In this document: positions 46,919-55,117 of the stretch, in pieces
How positions within the stretch are numbered: position 1 is the first letter of the stretch
Layout: every line of letters begins with the position of its first letter
NCBI GenBank assembly: GCA_012729635.1
Contig: JAAYCT010000009.1
Span: 1 to 64,000 of the forward strand
DNA length: 64,000 nucleotides
Direction: 5' to 3'
DNA from: Clostridiaceae bacterium
Lineage (GTDB): Bacteria; Bacillota; Clostridia; Saccharofermentanales; Saccharofermentanaceae
The notes under the pieces: model-generated
Told to the model about the DNA's origin: nothing
The model's input: only the letters and a program-made list of their open reading frames with translations
Database searches by the model: none
Position numbers and translations under genes: made by a program

Positions 46919-46995
46919 GTGGGATTAGTTCAGCTGGTTAGAGCGCTAGTTTGTGGCACTAGAAATCGTGGGTTCGAATCCCATATCCCACCCCA
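46919..46995 (+). tRNA. tRNA-His (anticodon GTG)
   Basis: Acceptor GTGGGAT/ATCCCAC, anticodon stem CTAGT/ACTAG with loop TTGTGGC (anticodon GTG), T-loop TTCGAAT, discriminator C and encoded CCA. A G at 46918 can serve as the -1 guanine that marks tRNA-His. First of three tRNAs in one transcript. Confidence 0.96.
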
Positions 46996-47046
46996 ACCGA
47001 CTCATTGAAGCGGGGATTTGAGAATTCATTGAATTCCCGATTTCGA

Positions 47047-47121
47047 TGGGGTGTAGCCAAGCGGTAAGGCACGGGACTTTGACTCCCGCATGCGTAGGTT
47101 CAAATCCTGCCACCCCAGCCA
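47047..47121 (+). tRNA. tRNA-Gln (anticodon TTG)
   Basis: Acceptor TGGGGTG/CACCCCA, anticodon stem CGGGA/TCCCG with loop CTTTGAC (anticodon TTG), T-loop TTCAAAT, discriminator G and CCA encoded. Confidence 0.96.
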
Positions 47122-47124
47122 TTC

Positions 47125-47200
47125 GGTTCACTAGCTCAGTTGGTAGAGCACCTGACTTTTAATCAGGGGGTCCGGAGTTCGAACCTCCGGTGAGCCACCA
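47125..47200 (+). tRNA. tRNA-Lys (anticodon TTT)
   Basis: Acceptor GGTTCAC/GTGAGCC, anticodon stem CCTGA/TCAGG with loop CTTTTAA (anticodon TTT), T-loop TTCGAAC, discriminator A and CCA encoded. A terminator follows at once. Confidence 0.96.
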
Positions 47201-47201
47201 G

Positions 47202-47232
47202 CCCCTTCGGGATCTTTCCCGGAGGGGTTTTT
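47202..47232 (+). terminator. Intrinsic terminator of the tRNA cluster
   Basis: CCCCTTCGGG (47202-47211) pairs with CCCGGAGGGG (47218-47227) with one T-G pair and is followed by five T. Confidence 0.85.
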
Positions 47233-47340: not shown

Positions 47341-47468
47341 GTCTTTGTTGCATATAAATCATGTGTAAGTATGCGGAGGTCTGTGTCATCGACAATCATT
47401 GTCACTGCAACAAACCGATTCGGACACGAGCGGATTATTGTGAAATTTTTCCGAAATCCTCGGTGAAG

Positions 47469-49685
47469 ATGAGGGTTTCCTGTGCGTTGTTATCTTTTCT
47501 TTTTTTCATGTTCTTATTTCCGGGGGCATTTGTTCATGCGAAAACGATCGATGCATCCTCCGTTTATCAGAAGACAGATATATCTGCGTTGTTTGATTTG
47601 CCTCCCTCGACCGATTTATTCGGTGTGGTGTGTGGAAGTTATGCGAACGTCAGAGCTTCCACTTCGACCAATTCAAGTATAATAACCGTTCTGTACTGCG
47701 GGCATCGTGTGCGTTTGGTCAATCTGATCACCGTTAACGAAGATCAATGGTATCAGATCGATTTTATCGATTTGGACGGAGTTTCGAAGCAGGGATATAT
47801 CTTTTCAACCCTCATTCTTCCGGACTCGACGGATCCGATTGATCCGGCATCCGATTTCGAGATATCCATCGCGGAATTCCCGGAATCATATAAGTGCGGG
47901 CTTCGAGCGCTTCATAAGAAGTACCCGAATTGGGTTTTCGTGCCGTTTATCACAAATCTGGACTATGAAACGGTGGTCTCGATGGAAGCCAACGAAAGCA
48001 GTTATAATCCCCGAAGCCTGATTGAGAATTATGTGGATGACGCATGGCAGTCAACATATACCAGAAACGATGCCACGCAGCCGGGATGGACGCCGTATGT
48101 TAATCCGGATTACCTGGGGCGAAAATATGATGCGTACAATTGGCTGACCGACACCTATGTCCCTTATGATGCGACCCGATGGGTGAAAGCGTCCAGAGGG
48201 TACGTGGCGTACGCCGTCGATCCGAGAAATTTTTTATCGGACACTCAGATTTTTCAGTTTTTCAAGTTGTCCTTTGATCCGGTCACGCAAACACTGGAAA
48301 CCGTTCAGTCCATGCTGGATACGCCTTCTAACTCATTCATGAAGTCCGGACTGATTAAGAATGATTTGGGTGAAGACATCTCCTACGCACAGGCGATCAT
48401 GGATGCCGCGATAGCTAAACAGGTAAACCCGTATTTTCTCACAACGCGGATTAAACAGGAAATCCTAAAATCGGACGGTCAGCCGGCCGCAACCGCATCG
48501 GGAACGTTTCCTGGATTTGAAGGATATTATAACTTTTATAATATCGGTGCCGTGTCGAGTGATGATCCGATTCGACCGGCTCTGATCTATGCGAAATCCA
48601 CTTCGACCGATCCTACGAAGAACTTTATGCGGCCCTGGGATTCTCAATACAAGGCGATTCTCGGTGGGGCGGAGTGGATAGTCAGCGGATATATATCCAG
48701 AGGTCAGGATACACTATATCTTCAAAGATTCGATTTAATCGACAATGCCGACGGGTTGTACAGCCATCAGTACATGACCAGCACGCAAGCTCCGGTATCC
48801 GAGGCGATTCGACTGAGGGCCGCTTATGATCAGTTAACGGATCTTCCGCTGATGTTTTCGATTCCCGTATTTACCAATATGCCGGAAGCCAATGTCCTTC
48901 CTCCGGAACGAAAGGGGAATCCGAATAACTGGGTGACGTCGATAAACATAACGGATCAGGCACTGACTCCGTCTTTTGATCCGAATATTTTCGAGTATGA
49001 TTTGGTGGTCGGATTTTTCGTGGACTCGCTTCAGCTTTCAGCGACCAAGGCGTCAACGTTTTCATCGCTTACCGGAATTTCATGGGATCCAGCGGATCCG
49101 AGTGTTCCGCTTCTTCGAACCGGCTCGATTCCTTTGCTTGTGGGGGAGAATCAAGCGGTGATTACCTGTACGGCACAGAACAAAGATGTCCGTACATACC
49201 GGATCAATATTGTTCGCCTCAATCAGGGAGCGGAGCCGATATTCGAGTCCGATTATGTAATCACCGGAGCCTACCTTTCCGGAATTGCCGAGCAGATGAC
49301 CCTTCAGACCTTTATGAGCGGAATAACCTTGCCGGAAGGGGCTGTCGCCAAGGTGACCGACCGGCTCGGTGCCGAAGTTACCGATTTAGCCCGGATAATG
49401 AGGACGGCCGATCGTCTGCTGGTATATGATGCAAGCGGAGAGCTGGTCAACTGGTATCAGATCATATTATACGGCGATCCGTCGGGAGACGGACGAATCA
49501 ATTCGTACGACATGACGATTCTCGCCCGTCACATTCTAAAGGAGTCGGAGCTGGTCGGCTATGAATTTATCGCTGCGGACGTGGATAAAAGCGGCAGGCT
49601 GAACAGTATGGATATGACGATGATTGCGCGGCATATCCTTAAGGAAGTAATCCTTCCCCAGAAAGGAACCTATGAACAGAGGTAA
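47469..49685 (+). CDS. Secreted SH3 / N-acetylglucosaminidase / cadherin-like / dockerin protein
   Basis: Exported peptidoglycan hydrolase, 738 aa from ATG 47469, where a signal peptide starts (MRVSCALLSFLFFMFLFPG, cleavage near VHA-KT). An upstream ATG at 47361 would add 36 residues with many Cys and no better ribosome site. Order: SH3-like module (about 30-95), glucosaminidase domain (about 115-440) with the catalytic Glu in TTRIKQEIL and the family segment FEGYYNFYNIG, cadherin-like beta-sandwich (about 485-585), a linker domain, and a dockerin (669-730). The dockerin has two calcium loops, DPSGDGRINSYD and DVDKSGRLNSMD. It overlaps by 14 bases the cohesin gene, its likely partner. Confidence 0.88.
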   Translation: MRVSCALLSFLFFMFLFPGAFVHAKTIDASSVYQKTDISALFDLPPSTDLFGVVCGSYANVRASTSTNSSIITVLYCGHRVRLVNLITVNEDQWYQIDFIDLDGVSKQGYIFSTLILPDSTDPIDPASDFEISIAEFPESYKCGLRALHKKYPNWVFVPFITNLDYETVVSMEANESSYNPRSLIENYVDDAWQSTYTRNDATQPGWTPYVNPDYLGRKYDAYNWLTDTYVPYDATRWVKASRGYVAYAVDPRNFLSDTQIFQFFKLSFDPVTQTLETVQSMLDTPSNSFMKSGLIKNDLGEDISYAQAIMDAAIAKQVNPYFLTTRIKQEILKSDGQPAATASGTFPGFEGYYNFYNIGAVSSDDPIRPALIYAKSTSTDPTKNFMRPWDSQYKAILGGAEWIVSGYISRGQDTLYLQRFDLIDNADGLYSHQYMTSTQAPVSEAIRLRAAYDQLTDLPLMFSIPVFTNMPEANVLPPERKGNPNNWVTSINITDQALTPSFDPNIFEYDLVVGFFVDSLQLSATKASTFSSLTGISWDPADPSVPLLRTGSIPLLVGENQAVITCTAQNKDVRTYRINIVRLNQGAEPIFESDYVITGAYLSGIAEQMTLQTFMSGITLPEGAVAKVTDRLGAEVTDLARIMRTADRLLVYDASGELVNWYQIILYGDPSGDGRINSYDMTILARHILKESELVGYEFIAADVDKSGRLNSMDMTMIARHILKEVILPQKGTYEQR

Positions 49686-51810
49686 ATTATTCTCATATGC
49701 GTCCCTATTCCTTGCATTGTTGGTGGTCGTATCGGTAATTCCGATCGCTTCGGTTCGTGCCGCCGCTTCGCCATCCATATCAGTCGGAGGAACCGCCGAA
49801 GTCGGGAAAACGATTGCGGTTTCAATTAAAATTTCGGGTACCGACGGACCATACAGCGGATTTTCGGGTCAAATTATATATAATTCCAATATGCTTCGAT
49901 TGGATTCGATATCCAGTAATTATTCTGCGTACAACTGGTATACTAGCCTTGCTTTAGGTACATTTGGCTGTGCTGGTGCATCCATTACGACAGGAAGCAC
50001 CATCGTCACCGCCCAATTTACCTGCCTTGAGGCCGGAACCACACAGATTTCGTTACATGATTTCGAGGTCGACGCGAATTACTCATCCGCATCGGCATCG
50101 GTTACCATTAAGACACCCGTTCCCTTATCCGGAAATGCGAATTTGTCTTCGCTTAAGGTTTCTCCCGGATCGCTTTCACCGGGCTTTTCTTCCTCCAGAA
50201 CATCGTATTCGATGGAGGTCGGTGAGGATGTGTCCAAGGTAACCGTGACGGCCGTTGCCGAGCACAGTAAAGCAAAGGTGACCTTAAACGGGGTTCAGAA
50301 CAATATTAAGCCCGGCGTTAACACGATTAAAATTACCGTAAAGGCCGAGGACGGGACGACAAAGGTATATTCGATTAAAGTGACGCGAGCAACCGGACCG
50401 ACCGGAACCCCGACGCCCACGCCTCAACCGCTTCCCCTGATGGAGTATCTCGGACAAGAGTTGATGATTATTCCGATTGATGAAGACACGACGACTCCCG
50501 AGGGATTTACGCCGTCTACATCCACATACAAAGGTGTAGAGATACCGGTTTTTATGGGCCCTTCGTTTGCAGGCTCTTCGGATCGTATCCTTTTGGTGCA
50601 ACTGCTTTTCGAAAGCGATATTAAGCTTTTCGTATATGATCCGAAAACGCAGACCGTGCATCCTTTTCTGTTTATTTCCCAGCCGGACGTGATATTTCGT
50701 ATTTTGGCTGTTGCCGATACCGCATTGATTCCTTTTGGATATGAACCGTTCGACTATGAATATGACGGGGAGAGAATCATTGCATATCGTTTAATCAGCG
50801 ATCCCGATCATCCGCAGATTCTTCTGAATTTGATGAATGATTCGGGACAGGCATCGTTTTTCTTCTACGATACCGAGAATAAAATGATGCTGCCGTATCG
50901 TGGAGAAACCGTCCTGGTCGAGCCGACATCGACCCCGACTCCTTCGCCTGCGCCGACCGATCCGACCCAGGGCTCTCTGAGTTCGGAGTCGACCGTTCCC
51001 TCGGAAACAATAGTGGCCACACCGGAGAAGGAATCGCTTGTACGGCAATTAATGGATATCAGAAACCCGCTTACCTTGCTGTTTTATTTGGTGTCTTTAC
51101 TTGCCGTGGTTTTGGTTGCGGGTGTTATCGCACTTGCAATCAATCGAAGAAGTGATCTTAACGATGAATATTATGAAGAAGAATACCTGCCCGATGAGCC
51201 GATTCCTCCGATTGCGGTGATGCCGAAAGGCAGTCGGCAAGCTTATTCGGGCGACGATGTATTCCTTGATGAGGATTCGTTCTCCTCCGACTATAAAAAA
51301 ACTACCGACGAATATATCCCTTCGATTGTTCGGACAGGCGCGCCGGAAAAATCAAGAGGTCCGGTTGAACCCGAGTATTTCGCGAAACCGCCTCATCCGG
51401 TAGCGGACTCGGTTTCCCGGATGGGTGTTCGTACCGTGAACGCAAATCTGCTACCGGGTCTTTCGAATCACCCGGAGAACGACCAACCGAAAACAAATCC
51501 GAGCCCGGTTGTCTCCGCTGAAACGCCTGAACATATACCGGTTCGATTGAAGCAGGAGCTCGTTGAAGAAAGCAAAAAAGCCAATACGAATGCAAAGAGC
51601 GGAATCGACACGGTTTTAAAATCCAACGAGGAGAAGCAGACTGCCGATCCGAAACAAGAGGAGAGAAAGACACAAAGCGCAGTTGAAAATCAAAAGGATA
51701 AATCCGATGCCGTTCCTGATTTCCCGGATATTTCAACACGACGTGTTTCGGATCTCCCCCCATCCAAACTGCCGAAAGCCGAGCCGGACCCGGATCCGGA
51801 TCTCGGATAA
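49672..51810 (+). CDS. Membrane-anchored cohesin-like / cadherin-like beta-sandwich protein with acidic cytoplasmic tail
   Basis: 712 aa. Signal peptide (about 1-33, ending VRAAAS). Cohesin-like domain (about 34-150): VGGTAEVGKTIAVSIKI, GFSGQIIYNSNMLRL and FTCLEAGTTQISL follow the cohesin strand pattern, though it is at the short end of the family. Cadherin-like beta-sandwich (about 155-242). After TPTPTP, an unrecognised domain (about 255-420). A second Thr/Pro linker, one membrane helix (about 466-488) followed by NRR, then about 220 residues that are acidic and look disordered. The cohesin should face outside and the tail inside. The ATG at 49672 overlaps the dockerin gene by 14 bases. The cohesin call is by pattern and needs a profile search. 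Confidence 0.72.
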   Translation: MNRGKLFSYASLFLALLVVVSVIPIASVRAAASPSISVGGTAEVGKTIAVSIKISGTDGPYSGFSGQIIYNSNMLRLDSISSNYSAYNWYTSLALGTFGCAGASITTGSTIVTAQFTCLEAGTTQISLHDFEVDANYSSASASVTIKTPVPLSGNANLSSLKVSPGSLSPGFSSSRTSYSMEVGEDVSKVTVTAVAEHSKAKVTLNGVQNNIKPGVNTIKITVKAEDGTTKVYSIKVTRATGPTGTPTPTPQPLPLMEYLGQELMIIPIDEDTTTPEGFTPSTSTYKGVEIPVFMGPSFAGSSDRILLVQLLFESDIKLFVYDPKTQTVHPFLFISQPDVIFRILAVADTALIPFGYEPFDYEYDGERIIAYRLISDPDHPQILLNLMNDSGQASFFFYDTENKMMLPYRGETVLVEPTSTPTPSPAPTDPTQGSLSSESTVPSETIVATPEKESLVRQLMDIRNPLTLLFYLVSLLAVVLVAGVIALAINRRSDLNDEYYEEEYLPDEPIPPIAVMPKGSRQAYSGDDVFLDEDSFSSDYKKTTDEYIPSIVRTGAPEKSRGPVEPEYFAKPPHPVADSVSRMGVRTVNANLLPGLSNHPENDQPKTNPSPVVSAETPEHIPVRLKQELVEESKKANTNAKSGIDTVLKSNEEKQTADPKQEERKTQSAVENQKDKSDAVPDFPDISTRRVSDLPPSKLPKAEPDPDPDLG

Positions 51811-54576: not shown

Positions 54577-54682
54577 CGTTTCAAATAAATGGTTTATGAT
54601 TTTGAAAAATGAGGTATAATATATTTGATTGTTTTTGAAGGTAATCGAGACTCGGCGAATTTCGTGCGAAGGAGATGTTTTT

Positions 54683-55117
54683 ATGACTGAGAACACAATA
54701 AATAAAATAGTATCATCGGCGGTAATCATCGGAATGGCCTTTTCCGTGGCCGCCTGTTCGAAAGAAGACGATAATAGACCCGAGACCAGTCTTACGACAT
54801 CGTCCACCTCTACTACAATGATTACCATCGAAACCGTGCCGGAGACCACACTATTTGTTTTTAGAGAGCCAATTGAGGAGAACGATCAAGAGGTGACCTG
54901 GCAGGAAACGGAGCTTCAGAGCGAACTTCCCAAATACGTCAAAATTAATTCCGACTATCTGCGTGTCCGTAAGGGACCGGGGACGGAGTATGATCAGGTT
55001 GCCGCGCTTACCAAAAATATGTTGGTCATTGTTGTGGCGAAGACGCAGAATAATTGGTATAAACTGGACAGCGGATACTACGTATCCGGCGAGTACCTGT
55101 CGGATACCAAGATCTGA
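54683..55117 (+). CDS. SH3-domain lipoprotein
   Basis: 144 aa. Signal peptide IVSSAVIIGMAFSVAAC ends in a lipobox, so the mature protein is lipid-anchored at Cys24 or so. A Thr/Ser-rich linker leads to a bacterial SH3 module (about 85-140; YLRVRKGPGTEYDQVAAL), which in other proteins binds peptidoglycan. No catalytic domain. ATG at 54683 with AAGGAGATG; an in-frame extension to 54629 lacks any signal. A TATAAT at 54615-54620 may be the -10. Confidence 0.85.
   Translation: MTENTINKIVSSAVIIGMAFSVAACSKEDDNRPETSLTTSSTSTTMITIETVPETTLFVFREPIEENDQEVTWQETELQSELPKYVKINSDYLRVRKGPGTEYDQVAALTKNMLVIVVAKTQNNWYKLDSGYYVSGEYLSDTKI

Follow-up and report, generated by a model that had tools for sequence, protein, structure and literature searches.

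The window, a stretch of 64,000 nucleotides from the genome of a Clostridiaceae bacterium, contains two genes on the forward strand, termed A and B here, the second of which begins within the first (Table 1). The overlap amounts to 14 bases, as the stop codon of A occupies 49683-49685 and B starts at 49672. The reading frame of A is open already from 47361 (ORF 47361-49685); 47469 is the likelier start because a clean, normal signal peptide begins there, and the residue numbers of A are counted from this position. Three tRNA genes (His, Gln and Lys; 46919-47229) and a terminator-like hairpin (47200-47229) are situated directly upstream of A. A small protein with an SH3_3 domain and an N-terminus resembling that of lipoproteins is encoded near the pair, at 54629-55117.

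Table 1. Genes A and B and their features, in positions of the window.
Feature	Position	Strand	Details and basis
Gene A, secreted SH3_3/GH73-type glucosaminidase/Cadherin-like/type I dockerin protein	47469..49685	+	738 aa
Signal peptide of A	47469..47540	+	MRVSCALLSFLFFMFLFPGAFVHA; read off the sequence by eye
SH3_3 domain of A	47640..47807	+	residues 58-113; Pfam 2.3e-7
GH73-type glucosaminidase catalytic domain of A	48168..48872	+	limits approximate; NCBIfam SagB and PDB matches
Cadherin-like β-sandwich of A	48942..49217	+	residues 492-583; Pfam 4.5e-8
Type I dockerin of A, two calcium-loop repeats	49470..49640	+	residues 668-724; Pfam Dockerin_1 5.7e-11
Ribosome-binding site AAAGGA of gene B	49662..49667	+	inside gene A, 4 nt before the ATG of B
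Gene B, membrane-anchored cohesin protein	49672..51810	+	712 aa
Signal peptide of B	49672..49761	+	read off the sequence by eye
Cohesin domain of B	49747..50133	+	modelled residues 26-154, nine strands; AlphaFold2 model, Foldseek, profile against PDB
Cadherin-like domain of B	50143..50388	+	residues 158-239; Pfam 1.1e-15
Unnamed extracellular domain of B with internal two-fold repeat	50455..50919	+	residues 262-416; alignment
Transmembrane helix of B	51079..51141	+	residues about 470-490; sequence, and equivalent position in relatives
Cytoplasmic tail of B, acidic, poorly conserved	51142..51807	+	alignment

The catalytic domain of A matches SagB in NCBIfam (1.2e-13), and its matches in the PDB include the Atl glucosaminidase of S. 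aureus (6fxo, 8.6e-9), SagB (6fxp, 3.3e-8; 6u0o, 4.6e-8) and 4pi7; autolysin E is among the nearest solved proteins. No Pfam match was obtained for this domain, PF01832 being unscored for protein A. Glu331 is near-invariant among the relatives and is a candidate for the catalytic residue. The similarity to characterised enzymes together with the conserved glutamate places A in the GH73 family (Atl/SagB type) by sequence, and A is predicted to be a peptidoglycan glucosaminidase of the type that cuts the bacterium's own cell wall. The dockerin at its C-terminus is matched over the full length of the Pfam family (PF00404), and in the PDB it matches the Xyn10B dockerin (1ohz_B, 1.4e-10). The two calcium loops read DPSGDGRINSYD and DVDKSGRLNSMD, and the helices that follow the loops are present in the modelled dockerin of a relative, which corresponds to the two-loop-plus-helix architecture of PF00404. 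A sequence-only reading of this DNA had described A as a secreted glucosaminidase ending in a two-loop dockerin, a description borne out by these matches.

The same reading had assigned to B a cohesin-like domain on a membrane-anchored protein, and Cadherin-like modules to both proteins. The latter are recovered by Pfam in A as well as in B. Anchoring through a transmembrane helix in place of a sortase signal also holds: a single hydrophobic helix near the C-terminus, with no LPxTG motif, is found in all 74 complete relatives of B and is visible in B. The Pfam search that the reading had proposed for both proteins was successful for Dockerin_1 in A, but Pfam Cohesin (PF00963) has no match in B itself or elsewhere in its own genome. 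The Cohesin family does score in orthologues of B (6.8e-7 in G035 and 9.8e-7 in G025), reaches 9.1e-12 in more distant relatives that adjoin dockerin genes, and at E<=0.01 is detected in 20 of 76 named B-type partners.

A profile built from the N-terminal domain of B and 68 relatives was searched against the PDB and the bacterium's own genome. The top PDB matches are mainly cohesins, with ScaB (3l8q, 1e-12) and CipC (2vn5, 9.5e-11) at the head, and NagJ (2w1n, 3.8e-8) and Sca5 of R. bromii (5.7e-6) among the lower ones. The AlphaFold2 model of the domain of B itself (pLDDT 93.2, pTM 0.85) has the nine strands of the cohesin fold, and the first 14 Foldseek matches of this model are all cohesins, the best with a TM score of 0.79 (2vo8). 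An unrelated Ig-like fold, the outcome that would have spoken against the sequence-only reading, is thus the opposite of what the fold and profile searches returned. Orthologue Pfam matches, the profile and the predicted fold support the first domain of B as a cohesin.

The source genome has exactly one dockerin, that of A, and the cohesin profile finds exactly one cohesin, in the gene beside it; the count of such domains, which had also been suggested beforehand, comes to one adjacent pair. A dockerin of A that binds a cohesin elsewhere, be it a protein encoded on contig 43, a cohesin missed in the search or one on another cell, is very improbable. The N-terminal region of the contig 43 protein is cohesin-like, with Pfam Cohesin matching its orthologues, and the assembly is 96.65% complete; against this, the profile detects no further cohesin in the genome, and the gene overlap and the conserved adjacency point to B.

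The remnant of a cellulosome or amylosome was also considered. The pair would then serve in feeding, by hooking a glycan-degrading enzyme onto the surface, with the GH73 domain acting on external substrates such as the walls of other bacteria, and many of the carrier genomes do come from gut and rumen communities in which cellulosomes occur. The combination by which a cellulosome is recognised, a multi-cohesin scaffoldin with several dockerin-bearing plant-polymer enzymes, was not found in the source genome: it holds one dockerin and one cohesin of B's type, no scaffoldin and no dockerin-bearing enzyme for plant polysaccharides. The catalytic domain of A further resembles autolysins, and a membrane anchor lies on the inner side of the thick wall, a position that suits action on the cell's own wall. 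With its single dockerin and single cohesin of B's type, the source genome is unlikely to preserve such a remnant, and we attach little probability to this origin.

In known dockerins, the cohesin is recognised via positions 10, 11, 17, 18 and 22 of each repeat. The symmetry of these positions was examined in 35 non-redundant dockerins of the A-B type system with 5000 shuffles. At positions 10, 11, 17 and 18, the two repeats of one dockerin are 78% identical, as against 20% between proteins, and none of the 5000 shuffles exceeds 34%. The within-protein excess is 0.60 at these four positions versus 0.19 at other variable positions; position 22 displays no special within-protein excess in the 35 dockerins. 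The dockerin of A has S/S, Y/M, A/A and R/R (repeat 1/repeat 2) at positions 10, 11, 17 and 18, respectively. The recognition residues thus differ between species but are matched across the two repeats of a dockerin, a pattern that functional cohesin binders with dual-mode binding would be expected to show.

The conservation of the pair was followed in two surveys, one of 118 related genomes by Pfam alone and one of 80 named loci retrieved in a search with B. A dockerin is present in 66 of the 118 genomes, 54 of which have exactly one. Pfam alone identifies 36 same-strand neighbours with the dockerin followed by the cohesin, in 35 of the 118 genomes, and the two domains are separated by 136-283 bases in all 36. 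Among the 80 named loci, a dockerin gene adjoins the relative of B at 66, on the same strand at 65 and mostly with gaps of less than 100 nt; several of the 14 loci without an adjacent dockerin gene stop at a contig end. The 80 loci span uncultured Clostridia, Lachnospiraceae, Oscillospiraceae, Erysipelotrichales and other Bacilli, with Eubacterium sp. MSJ-21, Pseudoflavonifractor and Amedibacillus dolichus among the cultured carriers. Adjacency at this frequency would not arise from genes scattered at random over a genome of about two thousand. Judged from gene order and domain matches, the dockerin-glucosaminidase/cohesin-membrane-protein unit is real and widely conserved, and it recurs in many bacteria of gut and rumen, cultured and uncultured, that lack a cellulosome. 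A phylum-wide sample has the pair in 4 of 8 genomes of the class, too few for an estimate of class-wide prevalence. Not all Lachnospiraceae may carry the pair, since for the rumen bacterium Butyrivibrio proteoclasticus neither dockerins on the polysaccharide-degrading enzymes nor any cohesin components were reported (PMC2914790).

Of the 66 dockerin neighbours, 52 have a glucosaminidase domain like that of A and 14, some of them fragments, have no detectable similarity to it; the latter include M6 proteases, one polysaccharide deacetylase, RCC1-like proteins and others that resemble a different glucosaminidase. As some neighbours lack the glucosaminidase domain of A, the dockerin and the membrane cohesin are the constant features of the system. 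A hydrophobic segment beyond residue 60 occurs in only 2 of the 66 dockerin proteins. We also note the B-type genes at loci L133, L138, L114, L124, L125, L136 and L146, whose dockerin neighbours have no glucosaminidase domain of this kind; among these neighbours are Cadherin-like repeat proteins of about 2000 residues or more, next to the M6 proteases, polysaccharide deacetylase and RCC1-like proteins just mentioned.

As the most economical explanation, we propose that A and B constitute a minimal cohesin-dockerin pair, independent of any cellulosome, in which B holds A at the membrane; a wall hydrolase docked on a membrane receptor is also what the sequence-only reading had suggested. A would leave the cell as a soluble peptidoglycan glucosaminidase of the GH73 type that lacks a membrane anchor. 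The dockerin at its C-terminus would fold with calcium and plug into B's cohesin, and the transmembrane helix of B would keep the complex on the outside of the cytoplasmic membrane, with the Cadherin-like and two-repeat domains of B serving as a stalk. The enzyme would thereby be kept near the nascent wall, so that the cutting of glycan strands may be local instead of diffuse. The proposal builds on computed domain identities, the cohesin fold, the single dockerin beside a single cohesin, their adjacency, the repeat symmetry and the membrane topology, from which we infer calcium-dependent binding, the tethering role and the effect on the wall. We estimate its probability at about 0.74, a value set by the dockerin-less pairs, the non-specific distance correlation and the docking model described below and by the predicted nature of the binding.

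A second pair is present on contig 43 of the source genome (L062, 1923-6063), in which the gene of a dockerin-less glucosaminidase with an N-terminal hydrophobic segment precedes a gene for a related protein with cohesin-like, Cadherin-like, two-repeat and transmembrane parts. This pair is conserved through the family, with folylpolyglutamate-synthase-like and threonine-synthase-like genes downstream. A dockerin-less enzyme is also found beside a B-type gene in five relatives, namely Enterocloster (L087, L113), [Clostridium] aminophilum (L094, L096) and Ventrimonas (L119), where a Gly/Ser-rich tail with GPG motifs forms its C-terminus. Four of the five genomes are devoid of dockerins, and in the remaining one a single marginal match lies elsewhere. 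Among the 118 related genomes, 9 contain cohesin matches in the absence of any dockerin. As the contig 43 pair shows, a dockerin is no prerequisite for pairs of this kind. The hydrophobic N-terminus of its enzyme is possibly an uncleaved anchor, in which case docking may not be needed, and the arrangement fits docking as a substitute for a membrane anchor.

These observations bear on a different role for B, in which the glucosaminidase has B as its obligate partner or as an activator that works via the Cadherin-like or two-repeat domains of B, with cohesin-dockerin binding absent or a secondary reinforcement. The persistence of the glucosaminidase-B pair without a dockerin, in the contig 43 paralogue, Enterocloster and [C.] aminophilum, and the 9 genomes with cohesin matches alone would be explained by it, as would the distances of the cohesin, which track those of the catalytic domain best (partial r 0.46). 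It accounts poorly for the B-type genes that pair with dockerin proteins bearing non-glucosaminidase domains and for the symmetry retained on the dockerin recognition face, and the possible anchor of the contig 43 enzyme offers another explanation for the missing dockerin; we regard an activator role of this kind as unlikely. The dockerin and cohesin distances are correlated (raw r 0.72, partial r 0.33), and the dockerin correlates with the Cadherin-like domain to a similar degree (partial r 0.30); the correlation is not specific to the dockerin-cohesin pair.

Docking was also modelled as a single chain with the dockerin and cohesin of L070, in which the two genes are in one frame, so that the intervening stop codon could be read as glycine and the signal peptide used as the linker; 21 relatives in the alignment were treated alike, and the genes of the window are in different frames. 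Both domains are folded in the model (pTM 0.51), which has no confident interface and was run with no control.

Comparison with cellulosomal type I pairs, such as the Xyn10B dockerin/CipA cohesin of C. thermocellum (1ohz) and CipC of C. cellulolyticum (2vn5), reveals a two-repeat dockerin symmetric at positions 10, 11, 17 and 18, as in A, and a nine-stranded cohesin fold, as in B. In contrast to these pairs, A-B comprises one dockerin and one cohesin of B's type, with no scaffoldin or cellulose-binding module, and has a GH73 wall enzyme as the cargo and a single-pass transmembrane anchor. The non-cellulosomal cohesins of C. perfringens NagI and NagJ (2vo8, 2jh2, 2w1n) are nearest to that of B by fold and among the nearest by profile. 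There the cohesin resides on a secreted glycosidase, whereas in A-B it resides on the membrane protein and the dockerin on the enzyme. The animal neural proteins of the TMEM132 family (PMC6030884) share with B a signal peptide, a cohesin, β-sandwich domains and one transmembrane helix; no dockerin partner is known for them.

S. aureus provides a functional parallel, as its glucosaminidase SagB trims newly made strands to their proper length under the control of the membrane protein SpdC (PMC12272431). There, too, a GH73 glucosaminidase, to which the catalytic domain of A is similar, is held by a membrane partner, and by analogy the placement of the wall enzyme in A-B may parallel the control of SagB by SpdC. 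SpdC, unlike B, belongs to the integral membrane proteins of the CAAX protease family; it makes direct contact with SagB, with neither cohesin nor dockerin involved. B has no CAAX-protease match and a single transmembrane helix. In the titles, abstracts and passages covered of the open-access literature, an A-B type pair is not described, nor is it in the passages found of a paper on mucin-degrading complexes; a 2009 survey of non-cellulosomal cohesins and dockerins may list some of the genes. Within that literature, the nearest precedent found is RflaF_05439 of R. flavefaciens (PMC3573020), which combines a dockerin with a papain-like module resembling NlpC/P60, a superfamily that includes wall peptidases. 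Unlike A-B, it is related to a large cellulosome and has no dedicated pairing with a membrane cohesin.

Research on cohesin-dockerin pairs has dealt almost exclusively with their role in holding together cellulosomes and related complexes for feeding. The domain content and gene order of A and B suggest that the plug and socket of the cellulosome also serve to keep wall enzymes at the membrane of the cell. A plug on a wall hydrolase and a socket on a membrane protein, if true, would represent a housekeeping use of the interaction; it would suggest a simple ancestor for cellulosomes, offer a testable way for many gut bacteria to hold and place autolysins, and account for solitary dockerins and cohesins where a genome lacks a cellulosome. 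More tentatively, the pairs could constitute a widespread surface system of two components, so far without a name, in Clostridia and other Bacillota of the gut. Its single-pass membrane receptor, bearing one cohesin, would capture a single exoprotein with a dockerin, in most cases a peptidoglycan glucosaminidase, and the system would be a dockable, calcium-dependent equivalent of SagB-SpdC that sets glycan strand length at the membrane. Should this doubtful extension be true, cellulosomes could be a specialised offshoot of housekeeping pairs. For studies of specificity and for protein engineering, the loci also provide a large number of pairs matched by nature. The two-repeat domain of B, for which Pfam, NCBIfam and PDB searches returned no match, is kept in dozens of relatives and is a candidate for a new domain family.
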